47,189 bases of DNA from Lachnospiraceae bacterium (GTDB lineage: Bacteria; Bacillota; Clostridia; Lachnospirales; Lachnospiraceae): NCBI GenBank assembly GCA_017617395.1, contig JAFZWG010000039.1, positions 1 to 47,189 on the forward strand. The letters are read 5' to 3'. Made by a program: the position numbers and the translations under genes. Shown in pieces: positions 1-47,189 of this stretch. The notes beneath the pieces are model-generated. The model was not told where the DNA came from. It made no database searches and worked only from the letters and a program-made list of their open reading frames with translations. How positions within the stretch are numbered: position 1 is the stretch's first letter; every line of letters begins with the position of its first letter.

Positions 1-333
1 CTCCGGAACATGCTCGATCGCCATGTTAGCGTAGAAAGCAGCCTCCGGATAAATGATCACGATCGGACCGAGAGCGCAGAGACCGTGGCAGCCGGTGCGT
101 ACGACGCAAACGTCGTTCTCGATTCCGTTCTTCTTGATTTCCTCGTTGAATGCAACGATAATGTCTTCACTGTGGGAGGAAGTACAGCCGGTACCGCCGC
201 ACACAAGGACATGATGCTTGTAGTTCTTGCCCTGTGCGTTCAACTCGGCGATCTTGGCTTCGCCCTCGCGGCGCATCGAAATGATGCCTTCCTGCTCCGC
301 CTTAATCTTGTTCAGTTCCGTAATGGATATCAT
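1..333 (-). CDS. NuoF/HndC-type NADH-binding hydrogenase subunit, N-terminal part
   Basis: First 111 residues of a NuoF-like flavoprotein subunit of an NADH dehydrogenase or electron-bifurcating [FeFe]-hydrogenase; the rest lies beyond the left edge. The visible part is the thioredoxin-like [2Fe-2S] domain that clostridial HndC/HydB proteins carry ahead of the FMN/NADH domain: a CGGTGC motif near residue 45 and CHGLC near residue 81 supply four cysteines (C-x4-C and C-x3-C). The ATG at 333 follows AGGAGG at a good distance. The NuoE-like gene ends 13 bases upstream, so the two are surely co-transcribed and their products form one complex passing electrons between NAD(H), ferredoxin and a partner enzyme. 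Which complex it is cannot be decided without the downstream genes. Confidence 0.85.
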   Translation of the reverse strand, partial: MISITELNKIKAEQEGIISMRREGEAKIAELNAQGKNYKHHVLVCGGTGCTSSHSEDIIVAFNEEIKKNGIENDVCVVRTGCHGLCALGPIVIIYPEAAFYANMAIEHVPE

Positions 334-346
334 TTGCTTCCTCCTG

Positions 347-1058: not shown

Positions 1059-1104
1059 GTGTTTTGCCTAGTAAATCAATATGTTTTAAGTGCTTTTCAA
1101 CCGC

Positions 1105-1620: not shown

Positions 1621-1667
1621 GCTATCACTCCTGTTCTTCTTCAACAAGACCGTCAGACTACAGGACC

Positions 1668-1789: not shown

Positions 1790-2602
1790 TCACGAAATCA
1801 ACCGGGACAGCGCGTACGCGACTCCGTCGTGCTCGTTATCCTTCGTGACAAAGTCCGCCATCGCCTTCACGGACTCGTCCGCATTGCCCATGACAACGCC
1901 CATCCCGGCCGCCTTTAACATCGGCAGATCGTTGTCCGCATCGCCGATGGCGATGGTCTCCTCCATCGGCACGCCGTACATCGAAGCGACCGCCTCCAGA
2001 GCCTTCGCCTTCGAGACGTCGCCGCGGAAAAACTCGGCGTACACCGGAAGTGATTTGCAAATTGTGACATTTTCCGGCATCTTGTCAAACAATATACCCT
2101 TTTGTGCCTCGGAAACCCACGCCGCGATGTGCTCCGGATCGTCGTACCACAGAATCTTCGAGACGCCGACGTCGAAGAGCGTCTCGATCGGCGGCATCGG
2201 CTTCGGCTCCATGAGACCGAACCGCTTTCCGTAGTCTGCCAGACGCTCGTCCAGGGGCAGGCCGTAGAGCCGGTTGGCGCTCCAGATGATCTGACTCGTC
2301 ATGCGCGCTCTTCCGCCCTCTAAAATAATCTTCGCCGCCTCCGGCGAGAGGTCCTTTTTGAACAGGATATCCTCGCTTCCGCTGTCGACGATCATCGCGC
2401 CGTTGCTGGTGATCACCGGCAGCGTAAGCCCGAGCATCCGGACGAACGGCTTCGCGCCCGGCCACGCCCGGCCGGTCGAGATGATGACATGAACGCCCTG
2501 TGCGATCACGCGGCGAAGCTCCGCGAGGTTGCCCTCGCTCACCCGCTTGTCGTCCGTCAAAAGCGTCCCGTCCAGATCGATTGCCACCATGCGGTACGGC
2601 AT
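1790..2602 (-). CDS. Cof-type HAD-superfamily phosphatase
   Basis: 270-residue HAD phosphatase of the Cof/YkrA type (class IIB cap), which dephosphorylates small sugar phosphates or cofactors such as flavin mononucleotide. Motif I is DLDGTLL near residue 9, motif II is the STGR segment near residue 42, and motifs III/IV are the lysine in SKAKALE and GDADNDLPML near residue 220. Length is typical. The ATG at 2602 lies one base past the TGA of the serine-hydrolase gene, with the Shine-Dalgarno inside that gene's last codons, so translation is coupled. The natural substrate cannot be told from sequence. Confidence 0.9.
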   Translation of the reverse strand: MPYRMVAIDLDGTLLTDDKRVSEGNLAELRRVIAQGVHVIISTGRAWPGAKPFVRMLGLTLPVITSNGAMIVDSGSEDILFKKDLSPEAAKIILEGGRARMTSQIIWSANRLYGLPLDERLADYGKRFGLMEPKPMPPIETLFDVGVSKILWYDDPEHIAAWVSEAQKGILFDKMPENVTICKSLPVYAEFFRGDVSKAKALEAVASMYGVPMEETIAIGDADNDLPMLKAAGMGVVMGNADESVKAMADFVTKDNEHDGVAYALSRLIS

Positions 2603-2603
2603 A

Positions 2604-3752
2604 TCACTCCTCCTCGTACAAAAGCTCGCGCAGCGACGGATGGATCACGCCGTACGCGTATCCGCAGTTGCGGACGTGCATCGTAAACACCAGCGAAAGA
2701 TGATTCTTCGCATCCATGATCGCAAGGCTTCCGGCAGCGCCGTCCCAGCCGAAGATCCCGGCCGGCGCCTTGCTTCCGATCTCCGCCGGATCCAGCAGCA
2801 CCTGCATGCCGATGCCGTAACCGTAGCCGTAGCGCCCCATGTTTTTTCGAATCTCCGCAAGCGAATCGCCGCTGAGAAAATTCTGCTGAAACTCCGCGAC
2901 GGTCTCCGGCTTTAAGATCCGCGCACCGTTCGCGCCGACACCGCCGCACGCGATCGCATCCGCAAGCTTCGCATAGTCGTCCGTACAGCTGTAAAGACCC
3001 GCACCGCCGCTTTGGTACGTCCTCGTGAGCTGATAGTCGCACGAAGACTCCATCGGGCGGATCTTCGCGATGTCGCCCTCCTCGCAGAAGAACTGCTCGC
3101 AAAGTCCCGGAAGATCGTCGTTCATCGGCTTCGCAAAGCCCGTGCTGTTCATGCCGAGCGGCTTCCAGATGTGCTCCGCAAGGTAATCGCCGAAGCGCTC
3201 ACCCGAGACGACCTCGACGACCGCTGCCGCCACGTCGTGACTTAAGCTGTACAGATAATGCTCGCCGGGATGGAACAAAAGAGGCGCCTCCGCCATCGCG
3301 TCCACGAGCTCGCGTGTGGTTGCGTTGTCTCCATTTTCCGACTTTACGCGGTCGATTCCGCCGCGGTGCAGATCGTAGTCAAGTCCCGACTGCATGGACA
3401 CGAGGTGCCGCATTGTAATCGGAGTGTGCGGCGCTGCGAGCGTCACGACGCCGTCGTGCTCCTCGCGCACCTTGATATTGCGAAATGCCGGCAGATACGT
3501 TCCGACCTCGTCGTCCAGCGAGAGCTTCCCCTGCTCGACGAGCTGCATCACCGCCGTCATCGTCTGAATCTTCGTCATCGAGAACATCAGGTACTTCTGA
3601 TCCTCCGCGACCGGCTTTGTCTTCGCCGCATCCGCATAGCCTCCGCGATGGCGGTAGATCACCTCATGGTCTCTGCGGACCTCGACATCGTACGACGGCA
3701 GCCCCGCTGCCAGCAGCGAATCGAGATACGCGGTCATCTTCTCCTGATTCAT
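2604..3752 (-). CDS. Serine beta-lactamase-fold hydrolase (class C / esterase type)
   Basis: 382-residue member of the beta-lactamase/transpeptidase-like family (PF00144). The nucleophile motif S-x-x-K is SMTK at residues 58-61; the YSL segment in LYSLSHDVAAAV matches the second, tyrosine-containing motif. There is no signal peptide, so the enzyme is probably a cytoplasmic esterase or peptidase; it should not be read as an antibiotic-resistance gene. The start at 3752 follows GGAGG; an open extension of 14 codons upstream has no site. The coupled HAD phosphatase follows one base after the stop. The mRNA begins at the 3817-3845 promoter and carries a stable hairpin before the ribosome site. 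Confidence 0.85.
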   Translation of the reverse strand: MNQEKMTAYLDSLLAAGLPSYDVEVRRDHEVIYRHRGGYADAAKTKPVAEDQKYLMFSMTKIQTMTAVMQLVEQGKLSLDDEVGTYLPAFRNIKVREEHDGVVTLAAPHTPITMRHLVSMQSGLDYDLHRGGIDRVKSENGDNATTRELVDAMAEAPLLFHPGEHYLYSLSHDVAAAVVEVVSGERFGDYLAEHIWKPLGMNSTGFAKPMNDDLPGLCEQFFCEEGDIAKIRPMESSCDYQLTRTYQSGGAGLYSCTDDYAKLADAIACGGVGANGARILKPETVAEFQQNFLSGDSLAEIRKNMGRYGYGYGIGMQVLLDPAEIGSKAPAGIFGWDGAAGSLAIMDAKNHLSLVFTMHVRNCGYAYGVIHPSLRELLYEEE

Positions 3753-4723: not shown

Positions 4724-4783
4724 TCGGCAAACTGTACGAAAAATGCGTCCGTTCCGCAACATTCCTTTACATATCCGCAAAAA

Positions 4784-5597: not shown

Positions 5598-6875
5598 TCA
5601 TCTGTTCTCCTTTCGACAATTCTCTTCTACCCACTCCGACCAGCGCTCCAGCAGGTCGTAAAGCCCGTCCTCCGAGAGCACGCCGCGCTTTACGTCGGCG
5701 CCGAACGCCCCCGCCTCGTCGGCCGCAAAATCTTCCTTCCACTTCGGCCCGTCATAGTATGCCGAGAGCACCTTGATCGCACCGCTTAACTCCTCAACGT
5801 ACGCTCTCCGTATGCCCTGCCGCTCGAGCTTGTCAAGAAGCTCGGACGCACGGTCCGAAAGCGCCTCCATCGCGCGCACGCGCACCTCGCGAAGCGCCGC
5901 CGTGATCTCGCCCTCCGACTCGCCGATGGCGCGGATCCGGCCGATCGTGTTGCGGACCTCCGACTCGCCGAGCTCCGCTTCGTTCTCGCCCTCAAGTCCG
6001 AGCGCGCGGCGGATGTTGTACGCAAGCCACTCAATCCAGGTGTACGCAACTCCAAAAAGCGAATCGTAATCGACAAAACCGTTGTCGTAACTCTTTCGAT
6101 ATCCTTCGAAAAATGCAGCCAGGCTCTCTCTTCGGAACGCTCCGTTCGTCAGTCCCGACCACTGCAGCGCAAGGTCCAGACATGACCCGACCGGGTTGTC
6201 GTACGAAAGACACTCGAGGTCGATCACATACGGCTTTCCGCGGAACCACATCACATTTTTCGGGTCCATATCCCCGTCGCAAATGCTGAGAACCGGCGGA
6301 AGATTCTGTCTTGCCGCATTGAGCTTCTCCTGCGCATCCGCAAGCATCGGAACACTCTCCTGAAGAAGCTTCGCAACCGGGCTCTTCTTCTCCGCTGCAA
6401 GCTTCGCAAGCCCCGCGAAATCCACGTCGCTTACCTCGGGCTCCCCGCACTTCTTCGCGGGCAGGATCTTCGAGTCGATCGCGTGGATCCGGCCGAGCAG
6501 CTCGCCCGCCTTTTTGCACTGCGAAGGTGTCGCGCCGGACTCGTCCGTAATCGCGCCCTTCTGCCAGCGGTAGATGTAGAAGTACGCGCCGTCCACGGAA
6601 AGCATTTTCCTCTTGCCGAACGTTAGCGCCGGTACCATCGGGATGCCGGCCTCCTCGAGGCGCTTCTCGCAAGCCTCCGCGGTCCGGTAGTTGGCCTTCG
6701 CCTCGGGGCGCTTCATAATCTCGGGGTTTAAGCATTTGACGGCGTAGGTTCCGCTTTGGGTCGTAACCTTGAACATGCGGTGCATCAGTCCGCCGCTCAC
6801 CGGCTTAATCCTGCCGGTGACGCCGCCCAGACCGGCCTTTCGCATCAATTTGTCAATCGTTTTGTTCGTTTCCAT
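5598..6875 (-). CDS. APH/choline-kinase-fold phosphotransferase
   Basis: 425-residue kinase of the aminoglycoside-phosphotransferase/choline-kinase superfamily (PF01636). Visible are the glycine-containing loop SGGLMHRMFKV, the ATP-binding lysine in YAVKCLNPE, the catalytic loop GDMDPKN (catalytic Asp and Asn kept, but the usual histidine of HGD is replaced, reading CDGD) and VIDLECLSYDNP for the metal site. About 120 helical residues extend the C-terminus beyond the usual family length of about 300. It overlaps the YczE gene by 23 bases and is followed within one base by the epimerase gene. Context argues for a sugar or small-alcohol kinase, not a drug-resistance enzyme. GAGGGAG precedes the ATG. 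Confidence 0.82.
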   Translation of the reverse strand: METNKTIDKLMRKAGLGGVTGRIKPVSGGLMHRMFKVTTQSGTYAVKCLNPEIMKRPEAKANYRTAEACEKRLEEAGIPMVPALTFGKRKMLSVDGAYFYIYRWQKGAITDESGATPSQCKKAGELLGRIHAIDSKILPAKKCGEPEVSDVDFAGLAKLAAEKKSPVAKLLQESVPMLADAQEKLNAARQNLPPVLSICDGDMDPKNVMWFRGKPYVIDLECLSYDNPVGSCLDLALQWSGLTNGAFRRESLAAFFEGYRKSYDNGFVDYDSLFGVAYTWIEWLAYNIRRALGLEGENEAELGESEVRNTIGRIRAIGESEGEITAALREVRVRAMEALSDRASELLDKLERQGIRRAYVEELSGAIKVLSAYYDGPKWKEDFAADEAGAFGADVKRGVLSEDGLYDLLERWSEWVEENCRKENR

Positions 6876-7515: not shown

Positions 7516-7570
7516 CCGACTGCCTCATTTTCCGCGCCCGCTCCAAAAGAAGGGCACAATACTTCGGCAC

Positions 7571-7584: not shown

Positions 7585-8844
7585 TCAGCATTCTGAACAG
7601 TCCCCAATCGAATCGTTCCCGGCCGGTTCCAGCTCGCGGATCCGCGCGACTCTGCCAAGTCCGATGGCGATTGCGGCAAGGCACATTCCGGCCGCAAAGA
7701 TGGTTGCCGCCGAACCTCCGCCGACACCCTTTCCGGTCGCGCGTCCGACCGCATCCGCAACCACGCCGGAGAGGCCGTACGCGACCACGTAACCGGACTG
7801 CGACAAGAAACCGATCATGCCCCACGCGCGCCCCTGCAGCTCCTTCGGAATGTTCGTGCGCGCCAGATAATCGAGGCTGTTGTTGGCGACCGGGATTGCC
7901 AGAAAGAACAAAAAACCGAACGTCCCGATGACGAACAGATTATGGCTCACGCCGAACATCGCCATGGCCAGTCCGCTCGCAGCAAGCCCGAGGCTAAGCT
8001 TTCGCACAAAGTTTCGCTTAATCCCGCGGATTCCAAGAATTGCTCCGGAGACGAGCATGCCCGACGCCGCGACGGTCTCCACGATTCCAAGCGATTTCTC
8101 GTTGGAAAATGAAAGCACGAACGGCCCGGCCAGCACCTGGAACACGCCCATGAACAGCGTGACCAGCGACGTGATCAGGATCAGAGGCAATAGTCCCCGC
8201 TTTCCGGTGATGACCTTCCACCCTTCCTTCATGCTCGTAAAGAACGGCGTCCGGTTCTCCGCCTCCTTGTTCGGCAACCCTCTCCGCACAACCGCTGCCG
8301 CTGTGATCGTCACGAAAAATGTCGCAATATCGATCGCGAGGATCACCTTGATGTCGCTCACCGTCAACAAAAATCCCGCAATGATCGGCGAAAAGAGATA
8401 CCCCGCGCTGCCCGCCATCGACACGAGCCCGTTGGCCTTCGAGAACTGCTCCTTCGTCAACAGGTCCGTGATCGTCGCGGTAAATGCCGGCTCCAAAAGC
8501 GCAGAGAACACCGAGCTGATCACGACGCCGGTGTAAATCTGCCATGTCGCCGCATCGCCGCGCATCATGCAGAGCAGGATAAACAAAACGCCGAGGCCCG
8601 AAAAACCGTCCCCGATCATCATCAAAAGTCTTCGGTCGTACCGGTCCGCGAGCACTCCGGCCGGTACCTTCAAAAGCAGTCCCGGCAGAAACGCGAGAAG
8701 CGTCAAAAGTGCCGTGCCCGAGGCATTTCCCGTCTTTTGGAAGATGTAAATTCCGAGTCCGAAGCTCGTCAGACCGCCGCCGATCGAGGAGATGAGCTGC
8801 CCCGCCCACAGCAGTAAAAACTTGTTGTAATTGCCCTGATTCAT
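7585..8844 (-). CDS. MFS exporter (macrolide-efflux/MefA-like group)
   Basis: 419-residue major facilitator with about twelve transmembrane helices, closest in pattern to the MefA/EntS-type efflux group (MFS_3). The signature loop between helices 2 and 3 is GVLADRYDRRLLM; helix 1 contains LWAGQLISSIGGG, typical of this group. It would use the proton gradient to expel a drug, siderophore or metabolite. The ATG at 8844 follows GGAGG; that site forms the 3' arm of a stem at 8854-8896. The upstream methyltransferase ends 126 bases earlier with no clear terminator between, so it may extend the T-box-controlled transcript. The substrate cannot be told. Confidence 0.88.
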   Translation of the reverse strand: MNQGNYNKFLLLWAGQLISSIGGGLTSFGLGIYIFQKTGNASGTALLTLLAFLPGLLLKVPAGVLADRYDRRLLMMIGDGFSGLGVLFILLCMMRGDAATWQIYTGVVISSVFSALLEPAFTATITDLLTKEQFSKANGLVSMAGSAGYLFSPIIAGFLLTVSDIKVILAIDIATFFVTITAAAVVRRGLPNKEAENRTPFFTSMKEGWKVITGKRGLLPLILITSLVTLFMGVFQVLAGPFVLSFSNEKSLGIVETVAASGMLVSGAILGIRGIKRNFVRKLSLGLAASGLAMAMFGVSHNLFVIGTFGFLFFLAIPVANNSLDYLARTNIPKELQGRAWGMIGFLSQSGYVVAYGLSGVVADAVGRATGKGVGGGSAATIFAAGMCLAAIAIGLGRVARIRELEPAGNDSIGDCSEC

Positions 8845-8896: not shown

Positions 8897-8970
8897 AAGT
8901 CTTAATCCGTTCCTTTTCCGTTTCTTATCCGTTTATTAAACCGGCTGCATTTTCCGATGCCCGGGGAGGC

Positions 8971-9795
8971 TTATTTCTTGCGAAGAAGCCAGATCAGATT
9001 GCTGCGGTACATCGATGCCGTCGTGATGTCCCGAAGGTCCTCCCGGTCTCCCTTGTAACCGCGGTAAATGGTGCGCACCTCAAAGCCGCACAGCTCCGCC
9101 AAAAGAAACACTTCGGAGCGGTACGTCTCGCGCATCAGAAGCGGCCGGATGCGCTCCCCGATCACGTTGCCGGCATCGTCGTACGTCACGAACTTCCAAT
9201 TCCCGTACATCTGCTGGCTGTACGGATCGTATGTGATCGCATTGTAGATCTTCTCGCGGTTGCCCTCGCTGTTGACGTACTCCAGCCGGAACGTGTAATC
9301 CTTCTTCGGGTCCGTCTGCATCTGCTGCGCCTGCATCGGCGGCCACGGGTCAAACGTGTTGAACGTGAGATACCCTCCGTCCGTCAACTGCTCGCGGATG
9401 TTTTTTAGCGCCTCAATCTGCAGCTGCTGCGTCGGAAGATGCATAAAACCGCTCCGCGCAATTATCGCGAGCGAATACTTTCTTCTCGAGCTGAACTTCG
9501 TCATATTCGCAGGGTAAATGTTCAAGGACAGGCCCATTTTCCGCGCCTTTTCATCCGCGACGCGGCACATCTCCTCAGAAAGGTCCGTGCCGTCGATATC
9601 GATTCCGCGCTCCGCGAGATACAACAAAACCGCGCCGGTTCCGCAGGCGATGTCAACAACGCCGCCCTGGCCGTAGTGGCGCGCCAGACTCAGGTAAAAA
9701 TCCTGAAAGCCCGCATGGTTGTCTTCCTGAGCATACATCACATCCAGGTAGCGATCGTAATTATCCGCAACATCTTTGTAATCATGTAAATCCAT
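8971..9795 (-). CDS. Class I SAM-dependent methyltransferase
   Basis: 274-residue Rossmann-fold methyltransferase. Motif I is VVDIACGTGAVLLYL near residue 48, the acidic end of strand 2 is IDGTDLSEEM, and motif III-like IIARSGFMHLP follows; the C-terminal half is a beta-rich region (YTFRLEYVN to GERIRPLLMRETY). It resembles the broad Methyltransf_25/11 group acting on small molecules. The acceptor is unknown. AAGGAG precedes the ATG at 9795, and the 2H/GNAT fusion ends 13 bases upstream, so both belong to the T-box transcript. That pairing with an acetyltransferase and a following exporter recalls drug- or metabolite-modifying cassettes, which is inference. Confidence 0.85.
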   Translation of the reverse strand: MDLHDYKDVADNYDRYLDVMYAQEDNHAGFQDFYLSLARHYGQGGVVDIACGTGAVLLYLAERGIDIDGTDLSEEMCRVADEKARKMGLSLNIYPANMTKFSSRRKYSLAIIARSGFMHLPTQQLQIEALKNIREQLTDGGYLTFNTFDPWPPMQAQQMQTDPKKDYTFRLEYVNSEGNREKIYNAITYDPYSQQMYGNWKFVTYDDAGNVIGERIRPLLMRETYRSEVFLLAELCGFEVRTIYRGYKGDREDLRDITTASMYRSNLIWLLRKK

Positions 9796-9808: not shown

Positions 9809-10801
9809 TCAAAACATCATTTTCTCCATGTATCCGCACGTAAACGGGAAGAAGTCAAACTTCTGTGTTCCGGTGTGGACGAAGCCATGCTTCTCGTACC
9901 ACTTTCGAAGCACCCGGTTCTCCTCCACGATACCGATCTTTAACTTCGCGCACCCGAGGATCCGTGTCCTCATAAAGCAATCATTAAGCAGCTTTGCGCC
10001 GATGCCGTTATGCCGAAACTCCGGCAGCACCGCCAGGTTGCTAAGCTCCGCGCTGCCGTCCTCCGAAATCCCGAGCGAGTAGTAACCGACGATCTTGCCG
10101 CTATGGGAGAACACATACATCGGGCGCTTCTCGATGAAGTACTGGTACTGAAGACGCCGCTCGTCGGTGGCAAATGCGGTAAAGCGCGGCGCATTTTCCG
10201 CGGTGAAGCCGAACTGTTCGGCAACGGTTGCGAACGACTCGCGAATGACCTGAACGCACTCGGGAATCTCCTCCTGCGCCATCTCACGCACCCTGCCCGT
10301 AAGGCGGGTGTCCCGGAGGTTCACGCTCATAATATGTCTGGTCGGGAAGAACTCGTAGAGATGCAGCGAGTTGACCCTTCCGACGAACGATTTGAACTCG
10401 TGAAGCACGTACGGGGCCGCGCGGAAGATCACGTCCGGCTCGTCGATCAGAAGCGTGGTGTGCGGGGTCCAGTGGAACGAGTCGCTGCAGCGCTCTTTCA
10501 GGGAAAGAAGCTCGTCGTTCATGTCCGGGGACACGAAAAGGACTTTCGCGCCGCCGAAGATGCCGATGTGATTGAAGGTCACATCGAAGGAATCGACCTC
10601 CTCGGACAGCCGCTGCATAAGCACTTTCAGCAGCTCCTCGCGGTCGGTCGAAAATGACCCTAAGGTGATGTGCATCGGAATGTTTTTGGTGTGGGTACCG
10701 ACGAACCCCTGCTCGTACAAAAGGTTCTGAAGATGACAAAGATGCGCCTCCGACGCCTCGTCATAGCCTGCCAGAATGTACAGTTGCTTGTTGTCTTCCA
10801 T
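9809..10801 (-). CDS. 2H-phosphoesterase/GNAT acetyltransferase fusion
   Basis: 330 residues in two domains. Residues 1-170 have the 2H (2'-5' RNA ligase-like/CPDase) pattern: two H-x-T motifs, HITLG near residue 44 and HTTLL near residue 118, which in this fold form the catalytic pair acting on 2',3'-cyclic or 2'-5' phosphodiester bonds. Residues about 185-330 are a GNAT N-acetyltransferase with LSNLAVLPEFRHNGIGAKLL, the acetyl-CoA pyrophosphate-binding loop, and the usual closing KWYEKHGFVHTG. The start at 10801 follows AGGAG; an upstream in-frame start lies inside the T-box terminator zone and is rejected. First gene after a T-box leader, co-transcribed with a methyltransferase. An RNA-end-processing or small-molecule-modifying role is possible; neither substrate is evident. 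Confidence 0.82.
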   Translation of the reverse strand: MEDNKQLYILAGYDEASEAHLCHLQNLLYEQGFVGTHTKNIPMHITLGSFSTDREELLKVLMQRLSEEVDSFDVTFNHIGIFGGAKVLFVSPDMNDELLSLKERCSDSFHWTPHTTLLIDEPDVIFRAAPYVLHEFKSFVGRVNSLHLYEFFPTRHIMSVNLRDTRLTGRVREMAQEEIPECVQVIRESFATVAEQFGFTAENAPRFTAFATDERRLQYQYFIEKRPMYVFSHSGKIVGYYSLGISEDGSAELSNLAVLPEFRHNGIGAKLLNDCFMRTRILGCAKLKIGIVEENRVLRKWYEKHGFVHTGTQKFDFFPFTCGYMEKMMF

Positions 10802-12961: not shown

Positions 12962-12985
12962 CATTTCGTGCACACATTTTCCGAG

Positions 12986-22319: not shown

Positions 22320-22436
22320 GGATGCCTCTTTCCGCACGCGTCCGTGCTTGAAACTGTAATGAATATTATACGCCGTATACATCGTAATGGCAAGCAAAAA
22401 CTCATTTTCCGACGTCCTTTTTCTTCATAAATCCGT

Positions 22437-22465: not shown

Positions 22466-22514
22466 TTTAGCGTATCGGCAGCGGAAAATGCCGGTCTTTT
22501 GAAAGCAGGTTTTT

Positions 22515-25387: not shown

Positions 25388-25434
25388 TCATTTTCCGACG
25401 ATTGTTTTTGATACTAACGAATGAGCAACGTAAA

Positions 25435-27230: not shown

Positions 27231-27254
27231 CTGCATTTTCCGTTTAATTGATGC

Positions 27255-29252: not shown

Positions 29253-29286
29253 AGTGTGCCTCCGGGGCTGCATTTTTCCACTGATC

Positions 29287-29295
29287 AGTATACCA
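29287..29295 (-). promoter_or_regulatory. Extended -10 promoter of the cellulase gene
   Basis: Minus strand TGGTATACT directly after the hairpin at 29298-29328; the -35 region is poor. About 35 bases before the start codon. Confidence 0.5.
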
Positions 29296-29297
29296 CA

Positions 29298-29328
29298 AAG
29301 CGCCCGCGGTTCATAGCCGCAGGCGCTT
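29298..29328 (-). terminator. Hairpin after the NlpC/P60 gene
   Basis: AAGCGCC-GCGG pairs with CCGC-GGCGCTT with one bulge on each side. On the minus strand only three T residues follow, so termination may be partial; the plus orientation has TTTTGTTTT. Confidence 0.55.
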
Positions 29329-29364
29329 TTGTTTTCGTATAATTCTCTCTGACGAAATCGTCTC

Positions 29365-34255: not shown

Positions 34256-34299
34256 GTCTTTTGTCACCACAGGACGCCTCATCCTGCGAAAAATGCTCC

Positions 34300-34825: not shown

Positions 34826-37339
34826 TTACATCACTCCCCGCTTCCAGTGTCCCTTCGTGTACCGTCCCTCTGCCGACGGCTCCGCCACGGTCTCGCCCTG
34901 CATCGCCTGTGCTAGCGTACGCAGCACGCGGTCCGCCTCGCGGCGCGTCTCCGCGGAAAATGCAACCCTCACTCCGAGCGGTCTCTTCTCCGCCACCTCG
35001 TCGAAAACGGTCAAAAGCGACGTCACCGCCGCGTTGTAGATCAAGGAATGACAATACCGGCACACGCTCACCACCGGCATCTCGTTGCCCTCCATGTCCG
35101 TGAGGATTCCGCCCGGGTTGCTTCCCGGCGAATCGCACGAAAACACGGTGCGGTGCGGGCATTGTTCGGACACCATCACGACGGTCCGCTCGTACACCGG
35201 AATCCAGTTTCCGGCCGCCATCTCGTAGGAGACCTCGCTTCGCTTAAGCTCCGGTGATACGGTCATCGCGTCGGCCCCTGCCGCCGCAAACCACTCTTTG
35301 GCCGCGTCGTTCGCCAGATACAGCGTGCTGTCCGTGACGACTTGCAGGTCCTCGCGGATTATGCGCCATCCGGGCACCTCCGCCAGCTGATCGGGAGTGC
35401 GCACCAAAACCGCATCGATCGGCATTTCCCGAAGAAGTCTTCCGACTTCGCGCACAACCGTGTCATGTACCGCGCCCTTGCTCACCCGAGGCAGCGCGAC
35501 ACCGATCCGCACGTCGTTGACCGTGCCGTGCCCCCGCTCCGCGCGGATGATGGAGAGGCACGCATCGCAGGCGCCCTCCATATCGACGTAAAGATCCGTC
35601 ACAACCGTGTGCCGCAGCGCCGCCATCGCCTGCTCCGCGGTCTGCACGATCACCATGCAGCCAAGGGGCTTCGCAGCATCCGTACTCGCGGCAGCACCGC
35701 CTGCACTCGCGGCAGCACCGGTTCCTCCCGCCGCGCTCTCCGCAGCAAATGCGAGTCTGCTCCGGTGGAACGTCCGGATCGCGGCCTGCTCATATGCTTC
35801 CAGCGCCTCGCGGCGCAACTCGTTTAATTTCGACACGGGCAGGAAAATCCCGTCCGCCACATCGACGGTCAGCTCCTCCCATGCATAGCCCGAACCGCCG
35901 GTCCGGCGCATCTTCGAGAGTATCTGCGCGGCGTCGGTCGGCAGCTGCTTCGCCGGCTCCGGCGCATCCCCCGTCACGGTGATGCAGGCCCGCTCCTTCG
36001 CGTCGGTCACCGTAAGGCGAAGCGGTTCTCCCGCTGCCGCGCGGAGCGTCCCGATCACGGGAAGGTCCTTCCGGTTTGCGATGAACTGCTCGCGGATCTC
36101 CGTGAGGAGGGTTTCATTTTTCGTCCGGAAGACGTAGACAAATTCCGGCACGCCGTCGTCGAACGCTTCCCGGCGCAGCGCTACCGGCTTCGCCGGGTCA
36201 AAGCGCGTCATGTCCTTCGGTGTCGTGATCTCGCCGCAGATAAAGCCGCCCGCCGTGCGAAGTTCGATCACTTCCTCGGGGCCGAGTTCCTCGCGAAGTT
36301 GCATCACGGCCGTCGGCTTCACGCCGTCCGTCACAACCGCACGCCCCAAAAGCACGCCCGTGTGGTTCGGGCGGTTCGTACACATCATCCCGCGGCCCTT
36401 CTCATCGAAGACGTAGCCCTCGCAAAAGCCGCCGCGGTTGTAAAGCTCCGCCAGCGCGGCCACGTCGTCCGCCATCTCCTTGGCGTGCGTGCGAAGGTAT
36501 TCCTCGTACGCCTTGTGGCCCATCTCCTCGTAGCGGTCAAGCCACCGGCGGTAGATTGCCGTCACGCCTGCGGCGTACTCGGGCTTCTTCATGCGGCCCT
36601 CGATCTTCAGGGAATCGATGCCGGTCGCCAGAAGCTCGTGAAGGCGAGGCAGAAGGCACTGGTCCTTCGGGCTTAAGAGAAAACCGTAGGCACCGTTCTT
36701 GCCGTTTGATTTAGAATTTTCCGTGTAGTAGTAACGCTTGCGGCAGGGCTGCGCGCACCGGCCGCGGTTGCCGCTTCGCCCGCCCGCGAGGGAAGACAAA
36801 AGGCACTGGCCGGAGTAACAGTAGCACAGCGCGCCGTGCACAAAAATCTCGAGTTCCCGGTCCGTCCCCTTCGCCAGCTTCGCGATCTCCGAGAGCTTCA
36901 ATTCTCTCGCCGGAACGATGCGCGTCACCTGCGGAGGCAACAGCAAAGCGGCGCTTTCCTGCGTGATCGTCATCTGCGTGCTCGCGTGGATTGGAAGGTC
37001 GGGAAACCATTCCGAAATCCGCTTCATCACGCCGAAATCCTGCACGATCACAGCATCCAGCCCCGCCTCATAGTACGGCAGCAGATACTCCCTGAGCTCT
37101 GCCATCTCATTGTTCTTCAAAACCGTGTTGACCGTGAGATACACCTTGACCCCGCGCAGATGAGCCTCGTCGATTCCGCGGATCAGCTGCTCCTCGGGCG
37201 GATTGTCGGCATAGGCGCGGGCGCCGAAACGCGCGCCGCCGATGTAGATTGCGTCACAGCCGGCCTCAATCACGGCGCAGAGCGCTTCGTAGGATCCTGC
37301 CGGTGCAAGCAATTCGATTTTCCCAGGGTGTCTCGTCAT
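34826..37339 (-). CDS. Peptidase U32-family protein with DUF3656-type C-terminus
   Basis: 837 residues. Residues 5-290 are the U32 barrel (KIELLAPAGSYEAL, VYLTVNTVLKN, IHASTQMTIT, ELEIFVHGALCYCYSGQC, RGRCAQPCRKRY); its cysteines are those proposed to hold an Fe-S cluster in RlhA-type tRNA/rRNA hydroxylases. Residues about 390-560 and 580-835 match the accessory collagenase-like (DUF3656) part. Members hydroxylate RNA or act as proteases; RNA hydroxylation is the better guess. An Ala-rich insert near residue 550 contains a 21-bp tandem repeat (35684-35720). The start is 5 bases past the zapA stop, with only a weak site. Confidence 0.87.
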   Translation of the reverse strand: MTRHPGKIELLAPAGSYEALCAVIEAGCDAIYIGGARFGARAYADNPPEEQLIRGIDEAHLRGVKVYLTVNTVLKNNEMAELREYLLPYYEAGLDAVIVQDFGVMKRISEWFPDLPIHASTQMTITQESAALLLPPQVTRIVPARELKLSEIAKLAKGTDRELEIFVHGALCYCYSGQCLLSSLAGGRSGNRGRCAQPCRKRYYYTENSKSNGKNGAYGFLLSPKDQCLLPRLHELLATGIDSLKIEGRMKKPEYAAGVTAIYRRWLDRYEEMGHKAYEEYLRTHAKEMADDVAALAELYNRGGFCEGYVFDEKGRGMMCTNRPNHTGVLLGRAVVTDGVKPTAVMQLREELGPEEVIELRTAGGFICGEITTPKDMTRFDPAKPVALRREAFDDGVPEFVYVFRTKNETLLTEIREQFIANRKDLPVIGTLRAAAGEPLRLTVTDAKERACITVTGDAPEPAKQLPTDAAQILSKMRRTGGSGYAWEELTVDVADGIFLPVSKLNELRREALEAYEQAAIRTFHRSRLAFAAESAAGGTGAAASAGGAAASTDAAKPLGCMVIVQTAEQAMAALRHTVVTDLYVDMEGACDACLSIIRAERGHGTVNDVRIGVALPRVSKGAVHDTVVREVGRLLREMPIDAVLVRTPDQLAEVPGWRIIREDLQVVTDSTLYLANDAAKEWFAAAGADAMTVSPELKRSEVSYEMAAGNWIPVYERTVVMVSEQCPHRTVFSCDSPGSNPGGILTDMEGNEMPVVSVCRYCHSLIYNAAVTSLLTVFDEVAEKRPLGVRVAFSAETRREADRVLRTLAQAMQGETVAEPSAEGRYTKGHWKRGVM

Positions 37340-37761: not shown

Positions 37762-37843
37762 GGTACTGTCCTCTCTTTCTCCTCTGTTTCTATCGTGTCA
37801 CAGGCCTTCCTTCGGAAAATGCAGCCTGCTTTTTTCTCTTTCT

Positions 37844-39624: not shown

Positions 39625-40797
39625 ATGCGATACACCGAATTACCGCTTGCCGAACTGCTTCCCGAGTCGACTCTCGCGAGCCTTTCGGCCTTTTTGAAAG
39701 ACCCCGGATACTGTCCCGACGACGGGGCCGAACCGTGCTTTTTCGACATCGAAACCTGCGGGCTGAGTGCGCGTTCCGCGCCCGTCTACATGATTGGTGC
39801 CGTTGCGCCCGACGCGCTCGGACGCTTCGTCTTCCGGCAGTGGTTTGCCGAGACTCCCTCGGAGGAGTCCGCCCTTCTCAGAGCATTTTTCGACTCTCTG
39901 CCGACGCGCGTGCGCCTGCTGCACTATAACGGAACGACGTTCGACATTCCGTTTCTTCGCGACCGAAGCCGCATTCTCGGACTTCCGCCGTTTTTAGGCT
40001 CCCTCTCCCTCGATCTCTACACACCGCTCCGGCGCTTAAAAACGCTCGCCGGTCTTCCGTCCTGCCGCCAGCGCGACTTAGAGCCGCTCGCCGGCTACGA
40101 CCGCGAGGACCCCTACGACGGAGGCACCCTGATCCGCTTTTACTCCGAGTTCGTCGGTCTTTCGAAGTTCAACAAGGAGGCCGCCGAGGCCCGCTACCGC
40201 GATCTTGCGCGCCACAACCGCGAGGACCTTCTGGGGCTCGTCACCCTGTGCCGCCTTCTTCCGTGCGTGGACATCGCCTCTTCCACAGTGGAAAATGCAG
40301 AGCTCGCCCGCTTCGATTCCGACTCCGTGACGCTCCGCCTTCGGATGTCCGCCGACTGGCCCGCAGGACTTACGCTCGGCAAGCCCCTCGACAAGCTTCT
40401 CTCGACGAAAAATGCTCCCGCAGTTTCCTCGCTGACTCTCTCGGGTGAGGACGACGGAAGCCTTCTTCTGACGATCCCGATTCTGACCGAACCGGCGAAA
40501 CATTACTACGCAAACTACAAGGATTACTACTATCTCCCGCTCGAAAACCGCGTGATCCACAAGAGCATCGCCTCCCACATGGACAAAGCGTACCGCCGGG
40601 CGGCCAAGCGCGACGAGGCGTTCGAGTGGTCCCGCGGGACACTCCTCCCGCAGGTCGGTGATCTCTTCTCGCCTGGCTTCGTCTACAAGAGCAAGGATCT
40701 GTGCCGCCTCTTCCCCGTGCGGGAGCTGGAAAAGCACCCCGAGCTGCTCATCGATTACGCGACCGGGCTTCTGCAGCTCTTCGGGAAGAGAAACTGA
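39625..40797 (+). CDS. YprB-like DEDD exonuclease-fold (RNase H-like) protein
   Basis: 390-residue protein with a YprB ribonuclease-H-like domain (PF13482). DEDD-type motifs: CFFDIETCGLS near residue 37, HYNGTTFDIPFLRDR near residue 97 and ARHNREDLLGLV near residue 193. The C-terminal half (about 225-390) has no named domain that I can see; YYANYKDYYYLPLENRVIHKS and the end RLFPVRELEKHPELLIDYATGLL are notable. It probably acts on RNA or DNA 3' ends. GAGGAGG precedes ATG 39625; 17 upstream open codons overlap the promoter and are rejected. Confidence 0.85.
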   Translation: MRYTELPLAELLPESTLASLSAFLKDPGYCPDDGAEPCFFDIETCGLSARSAPVYMIGAVAPDALGRFVFRQWFAETPSEESALLRAFFDSLPTRVRLLHYNGTTFDIPFLRDRSRILGLPPFLGSLSLDLYTPLRRLKTLAGLPSCRQRDLEPLAGYDREDPYDGGTLIRFYSEFVGLSKFNKEAAEARYRDLARHNREDLLGLVTLCRLLPCVDIASSTVENAELARFDSDSVTLRLRMSADWPAGLTLGKPLDKLLSTKNAPAVSSLTLSGEDDGSLLLTIPILTEPAKHYYANYKDYYYLPLENRVIHKSIASHMDKAYRRAAKRDEAFEWSRGTLLPQVGDLFSPGFVYKSKDLCRLFPVRELEKHPELLIDYATGLLQLFGKRN

Positions 40798-41984: not shown

Positions 41985-44900
41985 TTAGAACCCGGATATA
42001 TTGCTGAAGACATACTCGTAGATCTTTTGAATCGGTTGATAGGTATGGTCCACAATCGTCCGATCGAACCCTTGACCTGCCACACGTTCCTTAAAAATAC
42101 CGAACGCATAGTCGAAGCTGCCGTAAGGATCGAGTTCCTCTGTTTCCTTTCCGATCTGTTCGTCTGTCTCGCGGAGCAGAGCCAACGTCAACTCCTTATA
42201 CTGTCCCAGTTTTTCTGCCGACAGTTTCTCCGATCCCAGAAGCTCCTCCAGTGCGGGGAAGAGCACTTCCGACTCCGCCTTGCCTTTCATGTATCCGGTG
42301 GCAATATTCCACGTTTCTTCCATTACGGCATCAAACAATTCTTTATATTCGTTTTTGCGGATCAGGACCCACGCAGTATTCGCATAGTGCAATCCTGCGA
42401 CAAATCTACCGCCGGCCGGACAATAGAAGGAAATACCGAGCTCTACTGCCGTGTTGACAACATCAAACGTGATATCCAAAGCTCTGGCGGAAGTGTTGGG
42501 CAGAGACGTCAGAATGTCAAACCGGATGGCTGACCAAATGCCTTCAATTGCGCCGTAAGCATCCAGATTCCACGTTCCGTTCCGATACTGAATCACCATG
42601 ATTGTGCTTTCGTAATTCTTCACCTTACTCTTCCGATCGGTGCGAATGACATAGTATGTAGTATCGTTAAGCTTCTCCCAATCACTTGAAGTATAGGTTT
42701 TGAGCAGCTTGTCGTCTCCGAACGCTCCGACCCCGTACACGCCTTCCAGTGCCTCTTTAAGATCGTTGACACTGATTTCGTCAATCCGTTCCCAGACCGC
42801 GTATAACACAATGCGTTGCCCGGATTTGCCCTCAATCTTATGGTCCCCGTCGACCGGATAGTCCGGGTACAGGGGATCCAGTTTCAAGCCGATATCCTGG
42901 ATATTGTGTCTGGACCAGCCACGGAAATAATAACCTTCGCGGGTTGGCACCTTCGAGGAAATGTAACACTCGCCGGGATCCATTGTTTCCGGCGCCGGAA
43001 CATCTTTTCCACCATTGGCAAGATAGTGGATCACCACTTTTCCGGGCACTCCCGGCACCAGCTCATAATCGGCGTAAAAAGTCAGATTTTTAGTTACCTT
43101 AATCTTCTCATTGATGTCATAATACTTCGAGGTGTCTCCGGCTTCTTTGGTCCAACCGGCGAAGCGATAGCCGGACAGTTCCGTCTGAACAATCGGAAGA
43201 TCGAGTTCGGACAGAGTCACCGTTGTATCATATTTCAGAGTTCTTCTTGCAATCTCGCGACCGAAGCCATCGTAGAATGTAAAATCATACTCTTTGGAAC
43301 TCCAGATTGCGTAAAGAGTCACCTCTCGTTCCGGGACGGTAAACTCTCCGTCCACACCGATGGTCACAGTATCCGGGGTAGTTCCCCAACCGAGAAGAGT
43401 GTATCCATCAGGCTCTCCGAAAGATTTTTTATATTTCTTCATCTGGATAACCTGTCCCGGCACAACATCCTCAAGTTCAATGGAATCAACCTTGGCATCC
43501 GGGCAACCATTTTTGTCAAGAGACAGTTTGTACTTGGATTGCCAGCATGCATAGAAAGTGTATTCGGTAGGCGGTGCCACTCTTCCGCTGGGATCTCCAT
43601 GAATTACATAGGTTTCTCCGGCTGTCGTATACTTTCTTCCGTTTATGGAAGTCGTCCATCCGAGGAATACCCGGTGAGGATCCGTCGGCTTCTCGGCGCT
43701 GGTTACAATCGAAATATCGCCGACCTTACTTTCTGCAGTCGTCGGGCCTTTCGGTCCACCGGTAGCAGTCGATGAATTCAGATGATAATACACCATGACT
43801 TTTCCGGCCTCTTGCTCGCCCTTGTAATGGCTATACAGTCTGTACACCTTTTCATCCTGCTTCAGGATGGTCTCGGCAAGCACATGAGACTTCATATCAA
43901 CAAAATCCGACACAGACGCATTTTTCGTATAGACCCTTGAGCCGTAAACCCATCCATCAAAGGTCTTTCCCTTGAGAGGAATCTCCTCCGGTTCAAAAGC
44001 AAGGCTTTCGGTGGACAGATACCGTCCGGACTTCAACACTTTATTGGAATAACTGTCAATAAACTCAATTTGATAGGTGCGCTGATCCCACAAAGCAGTC
44101 AGTACCAAATCCTTCGGAAGATCTGAAATCTCCTCTTCGGCCTGATAGATCTCGCCGTCATAATCGCTCTGCCAGCCAAGGAAAATGTAATCATCTCTCT
44201 TGGCATTCGGAAGCATAAATGTTCCTGTTCCGAGAGGATTCAGGCTTTCCCGGCGCTTATCGCCATAGCCGTAATCGAGCGTGACTTTCGCACCGTTCGG
44301 GCTCCAGATTGCGAACAAATGCACCACAGTCGTTCCCCGCGCAATCGGCACAGAGGAAACAGCTTCCGAACGTTCCGCATCCGAAGTAAGGCCCCATCCC
44401 TGGAAGACGTAGCCCTTCTTATGCGGGCGCTCCGCTTCATGCTCCTCCGAGTCATAATAGTAAACCGACGGCACCTGATAAGTACTGGTATTCCAATGAA
44501 TATACTCTACCCTCGACGGGATATCTCCACCGTTATCGTGATAGATTACCGGAATATAATCCTTCTGCGTCACTTCGTAAACACAGAAGAGCTGAATATT
44601 GGAACTTTCCAAAATGCTGGGATCATCAAAAACGACAGCCTCTCCGGGATGATAGAGTTTGGAGCGATCTGCTCCCTCCGGCATCAGTCCCTTGAGCTTA
44701 TAGTCGGTCGTGTAGCCTAAGAAGCGAAGCCCCTCAATTTTCGGTGCACAAGCCTCGACATAGTAAATATGCTTATTATTCCACTTTTCATCCTTATGGA
44801 TAGTCTTTCCATGGAACGGGTCAATGTATTCCACGGAGTAGTGATGTTCTTTCCATATCGCATACAAGGTAATGCTTTCAACGGAAGTATCCTGGATCAG

Positions 44901-47189
44901 CGGATACTCCGTATAGATGTCTTCCTTGAAATTCATAGCATAAAGTCCGGTTCCGGTACGTGTTGTACTCCAGACGTCGAATCCATCTCCGTCGTCAAAT
45001 GCACATTTCGGAAGATGAACTCCTTCGCCGTACGTACAGGTCATTTCTTTCATGACACCGAAAAGACTTCCGTTACCATCGAAAATGATCTTGTAGGTGT
45101 TATCTCTCCAAACGGCATACAGGACATGATCCGCGGCATCTTCCACATCCGATTGCGCGGTCACGCGGACATGGTCTTTCGTCTCCCAACCGGCAAAAAC
45201 CTTTCCCTCAGGAGCTGTTACACCGCTCGGAAGCTCCGGCAGATCACCGTAGGGCTCTTTGTATACTACGGTTCTTGTTTCTTTTGCAAGTCTGTTGCTC
45301 GGATCGGATCCGCCGTTTACGTTGAAGCTCACCGTAACCTTTGCTATCTCCACCCAATGAGCGTACAGAGTTATCACAGTACCGTTTTCGGCATCGGCAG
45401 GGACCAGATTTCTGACGGTCGCCCCTTCGGAATACTCCACTCCCTTTCCGTCTCGTCTGGTGTTCCAGCCCGCAAGCACATAACCGGTTTTGACGAATTT
45501 ATTCTTCGCCAGAGTGACATCCTGATTGCAGAATGCAGGGGTCTTGTCCATCTCGCCCGTTTCGTAATTGTTGCCGTCATAGGCGATGAAGTACTTGGTA
45601 TCAGTCCAGTGTGCGTACAGAGTTACTCCCTGAGTGCTGGGAACAGGAGTAAACTCCGTCCATTTTGCTCCGCCGACCTTCTGGGAATACCAGCCGTCAA
45701 ACGTCTTGTAACCGGGAGCACGCGGAGGTTCCGGATATGTTCCGCCCATGACGTCTCCCAAGACCGCTGTACGGATGACCGGCTCACTCCACCCGATTCC
45801 TCCGTTCGGATCAAACAAAATCTTGCATCCGCCGCGGCTGCTCTGCGATACTTCTACGGAAACAGACCGGTTATACTCGGGATCTTTGAACGTGATCACG
45901 CCCTTGCGGTCACTTCCTTCGGTGTTCTTGGGAACCTCAACCTTATAGGTAGTTGCTCCCGTTCTCGTCACCCTTACCCAACCGACTGCGTTCGGATCTA
46001 CGGACACAACAACGGAGCCCGCATTGGAAATGTTCAGCAGGCTTATATCACGACTGTCAGCATTTTCCGAAAAGCTGAGGCGCGAAGAATTGACCTTCAG
46101 TTCACCGACCTTCGGCAAAACGGTCTTCTGCGTCAGTCCGCAGACGGGGCAATACTGCAAAATATAGCCGTCCGACTCCTTTGTCTCCTTAACCGTCTCC
46201 TTGACTTCCCACGAATGCTTCTGGTTCGGCGCCGTATTCTCGCCGCGTGTCTCCGAGCATCTGCTGCACTTGTATTCCTTGACGCCGGCTTCACCGCAAG
46301 TGGGCGCAACATCCCGAAGCAACACCGAGAAATCATGCCCCTTGGCCTTTTCTCCGGTAGTGCCGCAGTTTATGCACTTCTGCGCTTCGGTACAGGTTGC
46401 CTCTGCCTTATCCCACTTATGATCCAACTTCTTTTCAAGGACGATCCCGCAGGTTGTGCAGATGTTATCCTCTCTACAGGAAGCGGAAGGATTTTTCGCA
46501 TGGTGACCCAAAGCCTTCTGGCCGATTGTCCCGCAGTTTATACACTTTTGATCTTCCGTGCAGGAAAATGAACTCCAGACATGGCCTATTGCTTTCTCGG
46601 TTTTGCCGCATCTGCTGCACATTCTGTCTTCGGTACAGCCCGGCGTAGAGCGATTCCAGTTATGACCTGTTGCCTTCTCCAGGATAAGGCCGCAGGTTGA
46701 GCAGACTTTATCCTCCGTACAAGTAGCGGTAGGCATATCGGAATGGTGACCGAAGGCCTTCTGATCGACCGTTCCGCAGTTTACACACTTCCGGTCTTCC
46801 GTGCAGGAAGCCGTCACACGATCCCAGGTATGGCCGGTCGCCTTCTCGACTTTACCGCATCTGCTGCACTTCTTATCTTCGGTACAGGTAGCGGCCGATA
46901 TATTCCATTTATGGCCCGTTGCCTTCTCTAAGACGATGCCGCAGGTTGAGCAGACTTTATCCTCCGTACAAGTGGCGGTAGGCATATCGGAATGGTGCCC
47001 GAAAGCCTTCTGATCAACCGTTCCGCAAACCGTACATTTCTTATCTTCTGTGCAGGTAGCCGTCGTTCGATTCCAGGTATGACCGGTCGCCTTCTCGACT
47101 TTGCCGCATTTGCTGCACTTCTTATCTTCGGTACAGGTAGCGGCCGATATATTCCATTTATGGCCCGTTGCCTTCTCTAAAACGATGCC
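41985..47189 (-). CDS. Giant surface protein: Cys3His repeats, BACON-like and InlB-like repeats (5' end missing)
   Basis: The frame is open to the window edge, so the gene is partial: at least 1734 codons. From the N-terminal side: repeated 25-28-residue units with C-T-E-D-x2-C-x2-C-G ... G-H (C-x5-C-x2-C-x8-9-H), ten seen, plus a divergent unit and CPVCG (nt 47189-46130); a BACON/Ig-like domain (46115-45845; NAVGWVRVTRTG, GVITFKD, SVSVEVSQ); about twelve InlB/Listeria-Bacteroides repeats (45830-42780) recognised from G-x-x-F-x-G-W and L-Y-A-x-W; and a C-terminal domain of about 265 residues of unknown type. No LPXTG or transmembrane end is seen. Role unknown; adhesion or glycan binding is plausible. 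Internal Met residues such as that at 46985 are not the start. Confidence 0.85.
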   Translation of the reverse strand, partial: GIVLEKATGHKWNISAATCTEDKKCSKCGKVEKATGHTWNRTTATCTEDKKCTVCGTVDQKAFGHHSDMPTATCTEDKVCSTCGIVLEKATGHKWNISAATCTEDKKCSRCGKVEKATGHTWDRVTASCTEDRKCVNCGTVDQKAFGHHSDMPTATCTEDKVCSTCGLILEKATGHNWNRSTPGCTEDRMCSRCGKTEKAIGHVWSSFSCTEDQKCINCGTIGQKALGHHAKNPSASCREDNICTTCGIVLEKKLDHKWDKAEATCTEAQKCINCGTTGEKAKGHDFSVLLRDVAPTCGEAGVKEYKCSRCSETRGENTAPNQKHSWEVKETVKETKESDGYILQYCPVCGLTQKTVLPKVGELKVNSSRLSFSENADSRDISLLNISNAGSVVVSVDPNAVGWVRVTRTGATTYKVEVPKNTEGSDRKGVITFKDPEYNRSVSVEVSQSSRGGCKILFDPNGGIGWSEPVIRTAVLGDVMGGTYPEPPRAPGYKTFDGWYSQKVGGAKWTEFTPVPSTQGVTLYAHWTDTKYFIAYDGNNYETGEMDKTPAFCNQDVTLAKNKFVKTGYVLAGWNTRRDGKGVEYSEGATVRNLVPADAENGTVITLYAHWVEIAKVTVSFNVNGGSDPSNRLAKETRTVVYKEPYGDLPELPSGVTAPEGKVFAGWETKDHVRVTAQSDVEDAADHVLYAVWRDNTYKIIFDGNGSLFGVMKEMTCTYGEGVHLPKCAFDDGDGFDVWSTTRTGTGLYAMNFKEDIYTEYPLIQDTSVESITLYAIWKEHHYSVEYIDPFHGKTIHKDEKWNNKHIYYVEACAPKIEGLRFLGYTTDYKLKGLMPEGADRSKLYHPGEAVVFDDPSILESSNIQLFCVYEVTQKDYIPVIYHDNGGDIPSRVEYIHWNTSTYQVPSVYYYDSEEHEAERPHKKGYVFQGWGLTSDAERSEAVSSVPIARGTTVVHLFAIWSPNGAKVTLDYGYGDKRRESLNPLGTGTFMLPNAKRDDYIFLGWQSDYDGEIYQAEEEISDLPKDLVLTALWDQRTYQIEFIDSYSNKVLKSGRYLSTESLAFEPEEIPLKGKTFDGWVYGSRVYTKNASVSDFVDMKSHVLAETILKQDEKVYRLYSHYKGEQEAGKVMVYYHLNSSTATGGPKGPTTAESKVGDISIVTSAEKPTDPHRVFLGWTTSINGRKYTTAGETYVIHGDPSGRVAPPTEYTFYACWQSKYKLSLDKNGCPDAKVDSIELEDVVPGQVIQMKKYKKSFGEPDGYTLLGWGTTPDTVTIGVDGEFTVPEREVTLYAIWSSKEYDFTFYDGFGREIARRTLKYDTTVTLSELDLPIVQTELSGYRFAGWTKEAGDTSKYYDINEKIKVTKNLTFYADYELVPGVPGKVVIHYLANGGKDVPAPETMDPGECYISSKVPTREGYYFRGWSRHNIQDIGLKLDPLYPDYPVDGDHKIEGKSGQRIVLYAVWERIDEISVNDLKEALEGVYGVGAFGDDKLLKTYTSSDWEKLNDTTYYVIRTDRKSKVKNYESTIMVIQYRNGTWNLDAYGAIEGIWSAIRFDILTSLPNTSARALDITFDVVNTAVELGISFYCPAGGRFVAGLHYANTAWVLIRKNEYKELFDAVMEETWNIATGYMKGKAESEVLFPALEELLGSEKLSAEKLGQYKELTLALLRETDEQIGKETEELDPYGSFDYAFGIFKERVAGQGFDRTIVDHTYQPIQKIYEYVFSNISGF
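46487..47189 (-). repeat. 249-bp higher-order tandem repeat in the Cys3His region
   Basis: Three Cys3His units form an 83-codon block repeated at exactly 249 bp; for example AGGCATATCGGAATGG recurs at 46731 and 46980. The outer copies are almost identical at DNA level, the one near 46487 has diverged. The array runs beyond the window, so copy number may vary between strains. Confidence 0.85.

Follow-up and report, generated by a model that had tools for sequence, protein, structure and literature searches.

The question raised by this 47,189-nucleotide stretch of DNA from a Lachnospiraceae bacterium (contig 93 of its assembly, referred to here as the window) is why one short word, CGRAAAATG, recurs throughout it. 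An initial annotation, made from the letters of the window, had proposed that CGRAAAATG could be an iterated sequence of this lineage, enriched at the level of DNA, with a role in uptake, recombination, methylation or nucleoid binding. The part of this proposal that concerns a lineage-specific, DNA-level iterated sequence is supported by counts across the genome, by controls for codon usage, by the altered versions of the word found in relatives and by the existence of a clade without it. The function that we favour, tentatively and at close to an even chance, is that of an uptake-signal-like self-tag: CGRAAAATG may be maintained through biased natural transformation in a genus of uncultured Gram-positive Lachnospiraceae.

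Enrichment and anatomy of CGRAAAATG

An exact search of the window returned 31 copies of CGRAAAATG, 12 on the plus strand and 19 on the minus strand, in agreement with the earlier manual count, whose positions are correct to within a few bases; the accompanying estimates of about 79 copies of AAAATG and about two of CGRAAAATC compare with exact counts of 80 and 2. In 100 dinucleotide-preserving shuffles of the window the mean count of CGRAAAATG was 1.47 and the largest was 6. CGRAAAATA and CGRAAAATT occur three times each, such that the shuffles and the related A-tract words, both named at the outset as comparisons, all give fewer copies than the motif. By our gene calls, which are crude and come from a simple script, 20 of the 31 sites are coding and 11 are intergenic (Table 1). 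The best matches of the PcrA protein encoded in the window are from uncultured Lachnospiraceae (RUG13295, 75%, and UBA1175, 65%, over the best segments), and the nearest named match is rumen-derived. The UBA1175 stretch is also motif-dense, with 10 copies in 22 kb.

The assembly to which the window belongs (2.34 Mb in 97 contigs, 85% complete) contains 1218 copies (583 on one strand and 635 on the other), or about one per two thousand letters. The reversed pattern is found 22 times, which is a weak control that overstates the enrichment because the reversed pattern contains a TAA stop. The last-letter control, CGRAAAATC, occurs 250 times, corresponding to a CGRAAAATG/CGRAAAATC ratio of 4.9; the 31:2 of the window is more extreme. 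A sample of 381 kb was drawn from 21 stretches of this genome, and the finer results given below refer to it unless another source is named. Under an order-2 Markov model, the sample contains 138 copies of CGGAAAATG where 7.7 are expected (18-fold) and 85 copies of CGAAAAATG where 6.1 are expected (14-fold).

Codon usage was controlled by synonymous shuffling within genes. The coding sequence of the sample holds 132 copies, compared with a mean of 13.5 (standard deviation 3.7, largest 23) over 30 shuffles, and the codon-based explanation for which the initial annotation had suggested a check is thus not upheld. Copies inside genes occur in each of the six classes of frame and orientation, in line with its description of copies in genes and gaps and in varied codon frames.

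When 223 sites are aligned, CGRAAAATG stands out as a sharp core; the next position mildly favours C or A, and there is little information elsewhere. The uninformative flanks therefore indicate a bare word, and membership of a longer repeat is ruled out. One-letter variants of CGGAAAATG that change position 2 or positions 5–8 reach at most twice the expected count, while positions 1, 3, 4 and 9 tolerate some letters, and the optimum of the motif is about CGGAAAATGC. The spacing of neighbouring copies is near exponential.

Versions of the word and competence genes across the genus

The genus is represented by 22 genomes, including the present one, in which CGRAAAATG numbers 96 to 1411 copies per genome; 15 genomes of the family and 24 of the order, from other genera, lie at 0.2–3.5 times the reversed control. 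The motif is not quite restricted to the genus, and high counts are found in some of 297 genomes of other genera. The top ratios of CGRAAAATG to the reversed control there are 445/18 (G253), 409/37 (G134), 442/49 (G118), 294/33 (G337) and 169/21 (G339), with CGRAAAATG/CGRAAAATC ratios of 3.3, 5.2, 5.1, 1.4 and 3.4, respectively. PilB is present in G118, G134 and G337, and absent in G339 as well as in G253. G253, G118 and G134 belong to other genera of the same family.

Trees of ComEC and PilB group G006 with G017 and separate clades II and III; G015 joins G006 and G017 by PilB, and G011 lies beside them by ComEC. The PilB tree rows of G002, G005, G009 and G010, which were in a wrong reading frame, were disregarded, and G020 and G021, which are in neither tree, were placed by their words alone. 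Masking to N affected some small contigs (22,704 bases). Leading words were read from samples of all 22 genomes (22 to 381 kb each). In clade III the leading word is CGGAAAATG, with 208 copies against 17.5 expected in the ten genomes other than the present one. In the seven genomes of clade II it is GGCAAATG (99 against 16.6), followed by GGAAAATG (99 against 25.5), and GGCAAATG and CGGAAAATG are mixed; whole-genome counts of GGCAAATG relative to its reversed control are 614/117 in G012, 611/185 in G016 and 584/146 in G008. The leading word of G011 is AAATGCGG, with 1015 copies in the whole genome against 76 of the reversed pattern. In G006 and G017 of clade I, whole-genome counts show enrichment of neither GGCAAATG nor AAATGCGG, nor of CGRAAAATG, and the CGRAAAATG/CGRAAAATC ratio of the clade is 0.5–1.0. 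G015 is weakly enriched (GGCAAATG 337/150, AAATGCGG 276/70), and G007 of clade III carries CGRAAAATG and GGCAAATG about equally (660 and 622). All versions share an AAATG core. The shift of version is clear for G011, as is the absence of the word from G006 and G017.

The protein sequence permits the motif at 215 positions of the sample, and CGRAAAATG is present at 129 of these, a total that corrects for the double counting of some positions in the raw figures by orientation, which are alike (80/159 and 49/101). Occupancy is 54–63% in this genome and in G002, G010, G014 and G019, all of clade III, and 31% in G007 of the same clade. It falls to 15% in G006, 0% in G017 and 12% in G015 (clade I). 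In clade II, where numbers are small in several genomes, it is 18–38% for GGCAAATG and 12–29% for CGRAAAATG, and in G011 it is 20/53 for AAATGCGG and 6/13 for CGRAAAATG. Such high occupancy of permitting positions indicates that a strong directional process acts at the DNA level, above all in clade III. When 937 kb sampled from clade III was searched with a slightly wider pattern, a single gap exceeded 7.5 kb (7,634 bases, cut by the end of a stretch), which is about the chance expectation at that density.

The sites are also conserved within clade III. Among aligned orthologues in that clade, 28 of 47 sites of the present genome still carry the motif, compared with exact retention of 2334 of 11646 (20%) AT-rich control 9-mers; in the other clades the figures are 2 of 14 and 385 of 3449 (11%). 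These alignments were not deduplicated, and the comparison leans slightly towards the motif because either purine counts as a match to the motif whereas the control requires exact identity.

Genes for DNA uptake are widespread in the genus. ComEA is found in all 22 genomes (21 over the cut-off), ComEC in 20 (not found in G020 and G021; split in G015 and G016), DprA in 20 (not found in G009 and G015) and full-length PilB in 17, with fragments in G000 and G003. N-methylated pilins are present in all 13 high-quality genomes and in 18 of 22 overall, 17 of them over the cut-off. The type IV pilus locus of G010 contains pilB, pilT, pilC, two PilA-like pilins, a prepilin peptidase and PilM. In G011 (L241) there are two pilB-type loci, and the N-methylation motif is matched 16 times at E values of up to 1.

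Two groups of pilins were considered as candidate receptors. A minor pilin that is mostly basic (its pI ranges from 6.7 to 9.9) can be aligned between 14 genomes from clades I–III; we refer to it as FimT/GspH-like, a name of our own for a protein in which Pfam matched the N-methylation motif only. FimT binds DNA in Gram-negative competence pili, and other minor-pilin residues are the more important ones in pneumococcus (PMC12040237). The Pfam family ComP_DUS (PF16732) matches two of six clade III PilA-like pilins below its cut-off of 27.3 bits (G009, 21.7; G010, 18.0) and none of three clade I pilins, in a scan that covered some pilins of some genomes. This receptor search, by charge and Pfam, provides leads only.

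Proposed biased uptake and the alternatives

In the mechanism that we favour, a type IV pilus tip protein or minor pilin, with the FimT/GspH-like minor pilin and the PilA-like pilins as candidates, would bind motif-bearing DNA best. Retraction of the pilus would deliver the bound DNA to ComEA and ComEC, and DprA-assisted recombination would write it into the chromosome. Favoured uptake of motif-bearing alleles would then act as a molecular drive, filling most of the places that proteins permit, and changes in the binding protein would shift the favoured word around the common AAATG core. The accumulation of uptake sequences by molecular drive has been argued previously (PMC1939737). Judged from the genomes compared here, it is possible, with a probability that we put a little short of even, that an uptake signal with clade-specific versions arose independently in Gram-positive Lachnospiraceae and that a pilus tip protein reads the AAATG-centred word. 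These bacteria would then transform naturally, and drive would be the cause of the observed density.

The closest parallels are the DNA uptake sequences (DUS) of Neisseriaceae and the uptake signal sequences (USS) of Pasteurellaceae. DUS comprise eight dialects that agree with phylogeny and share an invariant CTG core (PMC3630211). Like DUS, CGRAAAATG is a short non-palindromic word with a thousand or more copies on both strands, in genes and gaps; its versions follow phylogeny, with a fixed core (AAATG in place of CTG) and variable flanks, and the genus has type IV pili and a ComEC-type channel, here as genes alone. Unlike DUS, whose dialects are read by the minor pilin ComP, it has another sequence, a Gram-positive host and versions that overlap more between clades; no tested pilin exceeds the ComP cut-off, and copies fused as inverted pairs are found between divergent genes. 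USS have a 9 bp core with subclade-specific versions (PMC1626085). CGRAAAATG differs from them in its Gram-positive host and in having no AT-rich flanking segments, and the partial resemblance of the G011 word AAATGCGG to the USS core AAGTGCGGT is probably due to chance.

Taken as an iterated self-tag, CGRAAAATG would add a new phylum to the range of uptake-signal-like words. Such words would then have arisen a third time, independently, among Gram-positive gut bacteria, and self-specific uptake would not depend on the outer membrane and its pore. These uncultured bacteria would be frequent transformers, and there would be a practical handle on them, in that DNA intended for them could be given their own tag. 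The genus offers a natural experiment, since its words shift and one clade lacks the motif; with pilin genes that can be aligned across the genus, covariation might reveal the receptor. Among the matches listed in the openly licensed literature, none described an iterated or uptake-type motif in Lachnospiraceae. A 2025 review presents Neisseria as the exception among bacteria that take up DNA from any source (PMC12236230).

Several observations weigh against biased uptake. The last letter is loose, in that CGRAAAATC has 205–480 copies in clade III genomes, where CGRAAAATG exceeds it 2.4–4.9-fold. Nor does each version belong to one clade only: GGCAAATG is above its reversed control in clade III (437/105 in the present genome) and CGRAAAATG is enriched in clade II (265–525 copies); the differences between clades II and III are therefore of degree rather than an exclusive switch. 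In the present assembly, itself incomplete at 85%, the only trace of PilB is a fragment located at the end of a contig, and a search for pilins gave no match. G006 and G017 of clade I lack the motif yet retain the FimT-like pilin along with the pilus, ComEA and ComEC, and G253, of another genus, has its 445 copies with no PilB-like ATPase. The clade I genomes show that the machinery permits the motif but does not predict it, and its presence was rejected as a predictor on that ground. An island-like, low-GC stretch of 20 kb in G010 (L134; 44.5% GC, with LysR, metallo-hydrolase, GNAT and SAP-domain genes) is undepleted, its 9 copies of CGRAAAATG being about the normal density, in this one stretch. 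CRISPR arrays, sought as a route to phages, gave no convincing example, and no phage of these hosts was identified. In Neisseria, inverted pairs of uptake sequences serve as terminators. Here, of 17 neighbouring copies less than 120 bp apart, 15 are inverted, but the four fused palindromes, CATTTTTCGAAAAATG, all lie between divergent genes (L018:17866, L022:5170, L024:5551 and L025:5020), an arrangement for which we have no explanation; a role as terminator hairpins was rejected accordingly. Finally, a 2006 paper states that uptake sequences were not known outside two Gram-negative families (PMC1626085).

CGRAAAATG could instead be an iterated site comparable to HIP1, bound or modified by a nucleoid, replication-repair or DNA-methylating protein and kept by selection on chromosome biology rather than by uptake. 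HIP1 of cyanobacteria is likewise a very dense iterated word. Density, symmetry, occupancy and lineage turnover would fit such a site too, as would competence genes without the motif in clade I and the motif without PilB in G253. HIP1 is a palindrome that contains a methyltransferase recognition site (PMC1939737), whereas CGRAAAATG is not self-complementary. An uptake receptor that changes predicts a word that shifts around one core, although a change in a binding protein of another kind would have the same effect. We regard this explanation as unlikely, though as the most likely of the alternatives.

A recombination hotspot of the Chi type, recognized by AddAB or a related nuclease, would also be a short non-palindromic word over-represented on the chromosome, as Chi is for RecBCD and AddAB. 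Chi sites commonly show orientation bias along replichores or transcription, which is not universal. The strand counts of CGRAAAATG are as even per stretch as chance would have it (21 stretches, chi-square 22.5). Measured against the strand that carries most of the local coding sequence, the sites divide 131 to 92 overall; sites not fully inside genes show no significant bias (51 to 41, p 0.35), and the excess comes from the coding sites (80 to 51, p 0.014), as protein permissiveness predicts. This lack of polarity argues against Chi-type or segregation signals and other replication-polar sites (FtsK-type), and lowers the probability of a hotspot. The motif also turns over fast within one genus and is about four-fold denser between genes than within them (1.75 against 0.40 per kb; the excess is smaller in G002, at 0.53 against 0.37). 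A hotspot is therefore improbable in our estimate, and of the four roles offered by the initial annotation it is uptake that fits best, polar recombination being disfavoured.

We assign a similarly small chance to another biased process; gene conversion is one example, and a mobile or defence system by which the word is favoured or marked as self is another. The data show a directional process at the DNA level and do not say which one; no candidate system was identified, in an analysis that included no search with a defence library.

A regulatory or promoter-associated element, such as the operator of a global regulator that has spread, would account for the intergenic density being highest between divergent genes (3.1 per kb, compared with 2.1 for convergent and 1.9 for tandem pairs) and for the divergent setting of all four fused palindromes. 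With 131 of 218 fully classified sites inside genes, in every frame and orientation class, and with distances to gene starts widely spread, it is very unlikely. An artefact of composition, codon pairs or assembly, to which the inflated reversed-pattern control and the incomplete, 97-contig assembly might have pointed, is in effect refuted, since the motif count is reproduced neither by dinucleotide shuffles nor by Markov models or synonymous shuffling, and other genomes of the genus share the motif while clade I does not.

Sites in the window and further observations

The 31 copies in the window are listed in Table 1.

Table 1. Copies of CGRAAAATG in the window, with strand and context by the crude gene calls.
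Word	Position	Strand	Context
CGGAAAATG	2068..2076	-	coding
CGGAAAATG	3332..3340	-	coding
CGAAAAATG	4737..4745	+	intergenic
CGAAAAATG	6107..6115	+	coding (antisense to gene)
CGAAAAATG	6254..6262	-	coding
CGGAAAATG	7526..7534	-	intergenic
CGAAAAATG	8313..8321	+	coding (antisense to gene)
CGGAAAATG	8948..8956	-	intergenic
CGGAAAATG	9535..9543	-	coding
CGGAAAATG	10192..10200	-	coding
CGGAAAATG	11442..11450	+	coding (antisense to gene)
CGGAAAATG	12001..12009	-	coding
CGGAAAATG	12975..12983	-	intergenic
CGAAAAATG	16363..16371	+	coding
CGAAAAATG	17309..17317	-	intergenic (convergent)
CGAAAAATG	20729..20737	-	coding
CGGAAAATG	22403..22411	-	intergenic (divergent), inverted pair with 22482
CGGAAAATG	22482..22490	+	intergenic (divergent), inverted pair with 22403
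CGAAAAATG	22951..22959	+	coding (pcrA/uvrD-like helicase)
CGGAAAATG	23458..23466	+	coding (pcrA/uvrD-like helicase)
CGAAAAATG	23836..23844	-	coding (pcrA/uvrD-like helicase, antisense)
CGGAAAATG	25389..25397	-	intergenic (convergent)
CGGAAAATG	27234..27242	-	intergenic
CGAAAAATG	34287..34295	+	intergenic
CGGAAAATG	34954..34962	+	coding (U32 peptidase gene, antisense)
CGAAAAATG	36115..36123	-	coding (U32 peptidase gene)
CGGAAAATG	37813..37821	+	intergenic
CGAAAAATG	39884..39892	-	coding (antisense to called gene)
CGAAAAATG	40406..40414	+	coding
CGAAAAATG	43919..43927	-	coding
CGGAAAATG	46061..46069	-	coding

Other over-represented words were seen during the counts. In the 381 kb sample, ACAGTCCCCA occurs 10 times (0.2 expected) and ACTGGGGACT 8 times (0.1 expected), likely as parts of a small dispersed repeat. 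In the clade III samples, CCTCAGCCT / AGGCTGAGG reaches 27 copies against 2.1 expected and is above expectation in 5 of 10 genomes, possibly reflecting a protein repeat. G004 contains a repeat with CCCCTAACCCCGTCCCCAAGAG (L147:13062-18436), whose 9-letter words appear 11 to 16 times in a 100 kb sample.

Two reading frames of the window were also noted. Positions 27255-29408 encode a GH5 cellulase with a CBM2 domain, which fits a fibre-degrading gut bacterium, and positions 41985-46985 hold an open frame of 1666 residues, the first 60 of which contain repeated CSxCGx segments.

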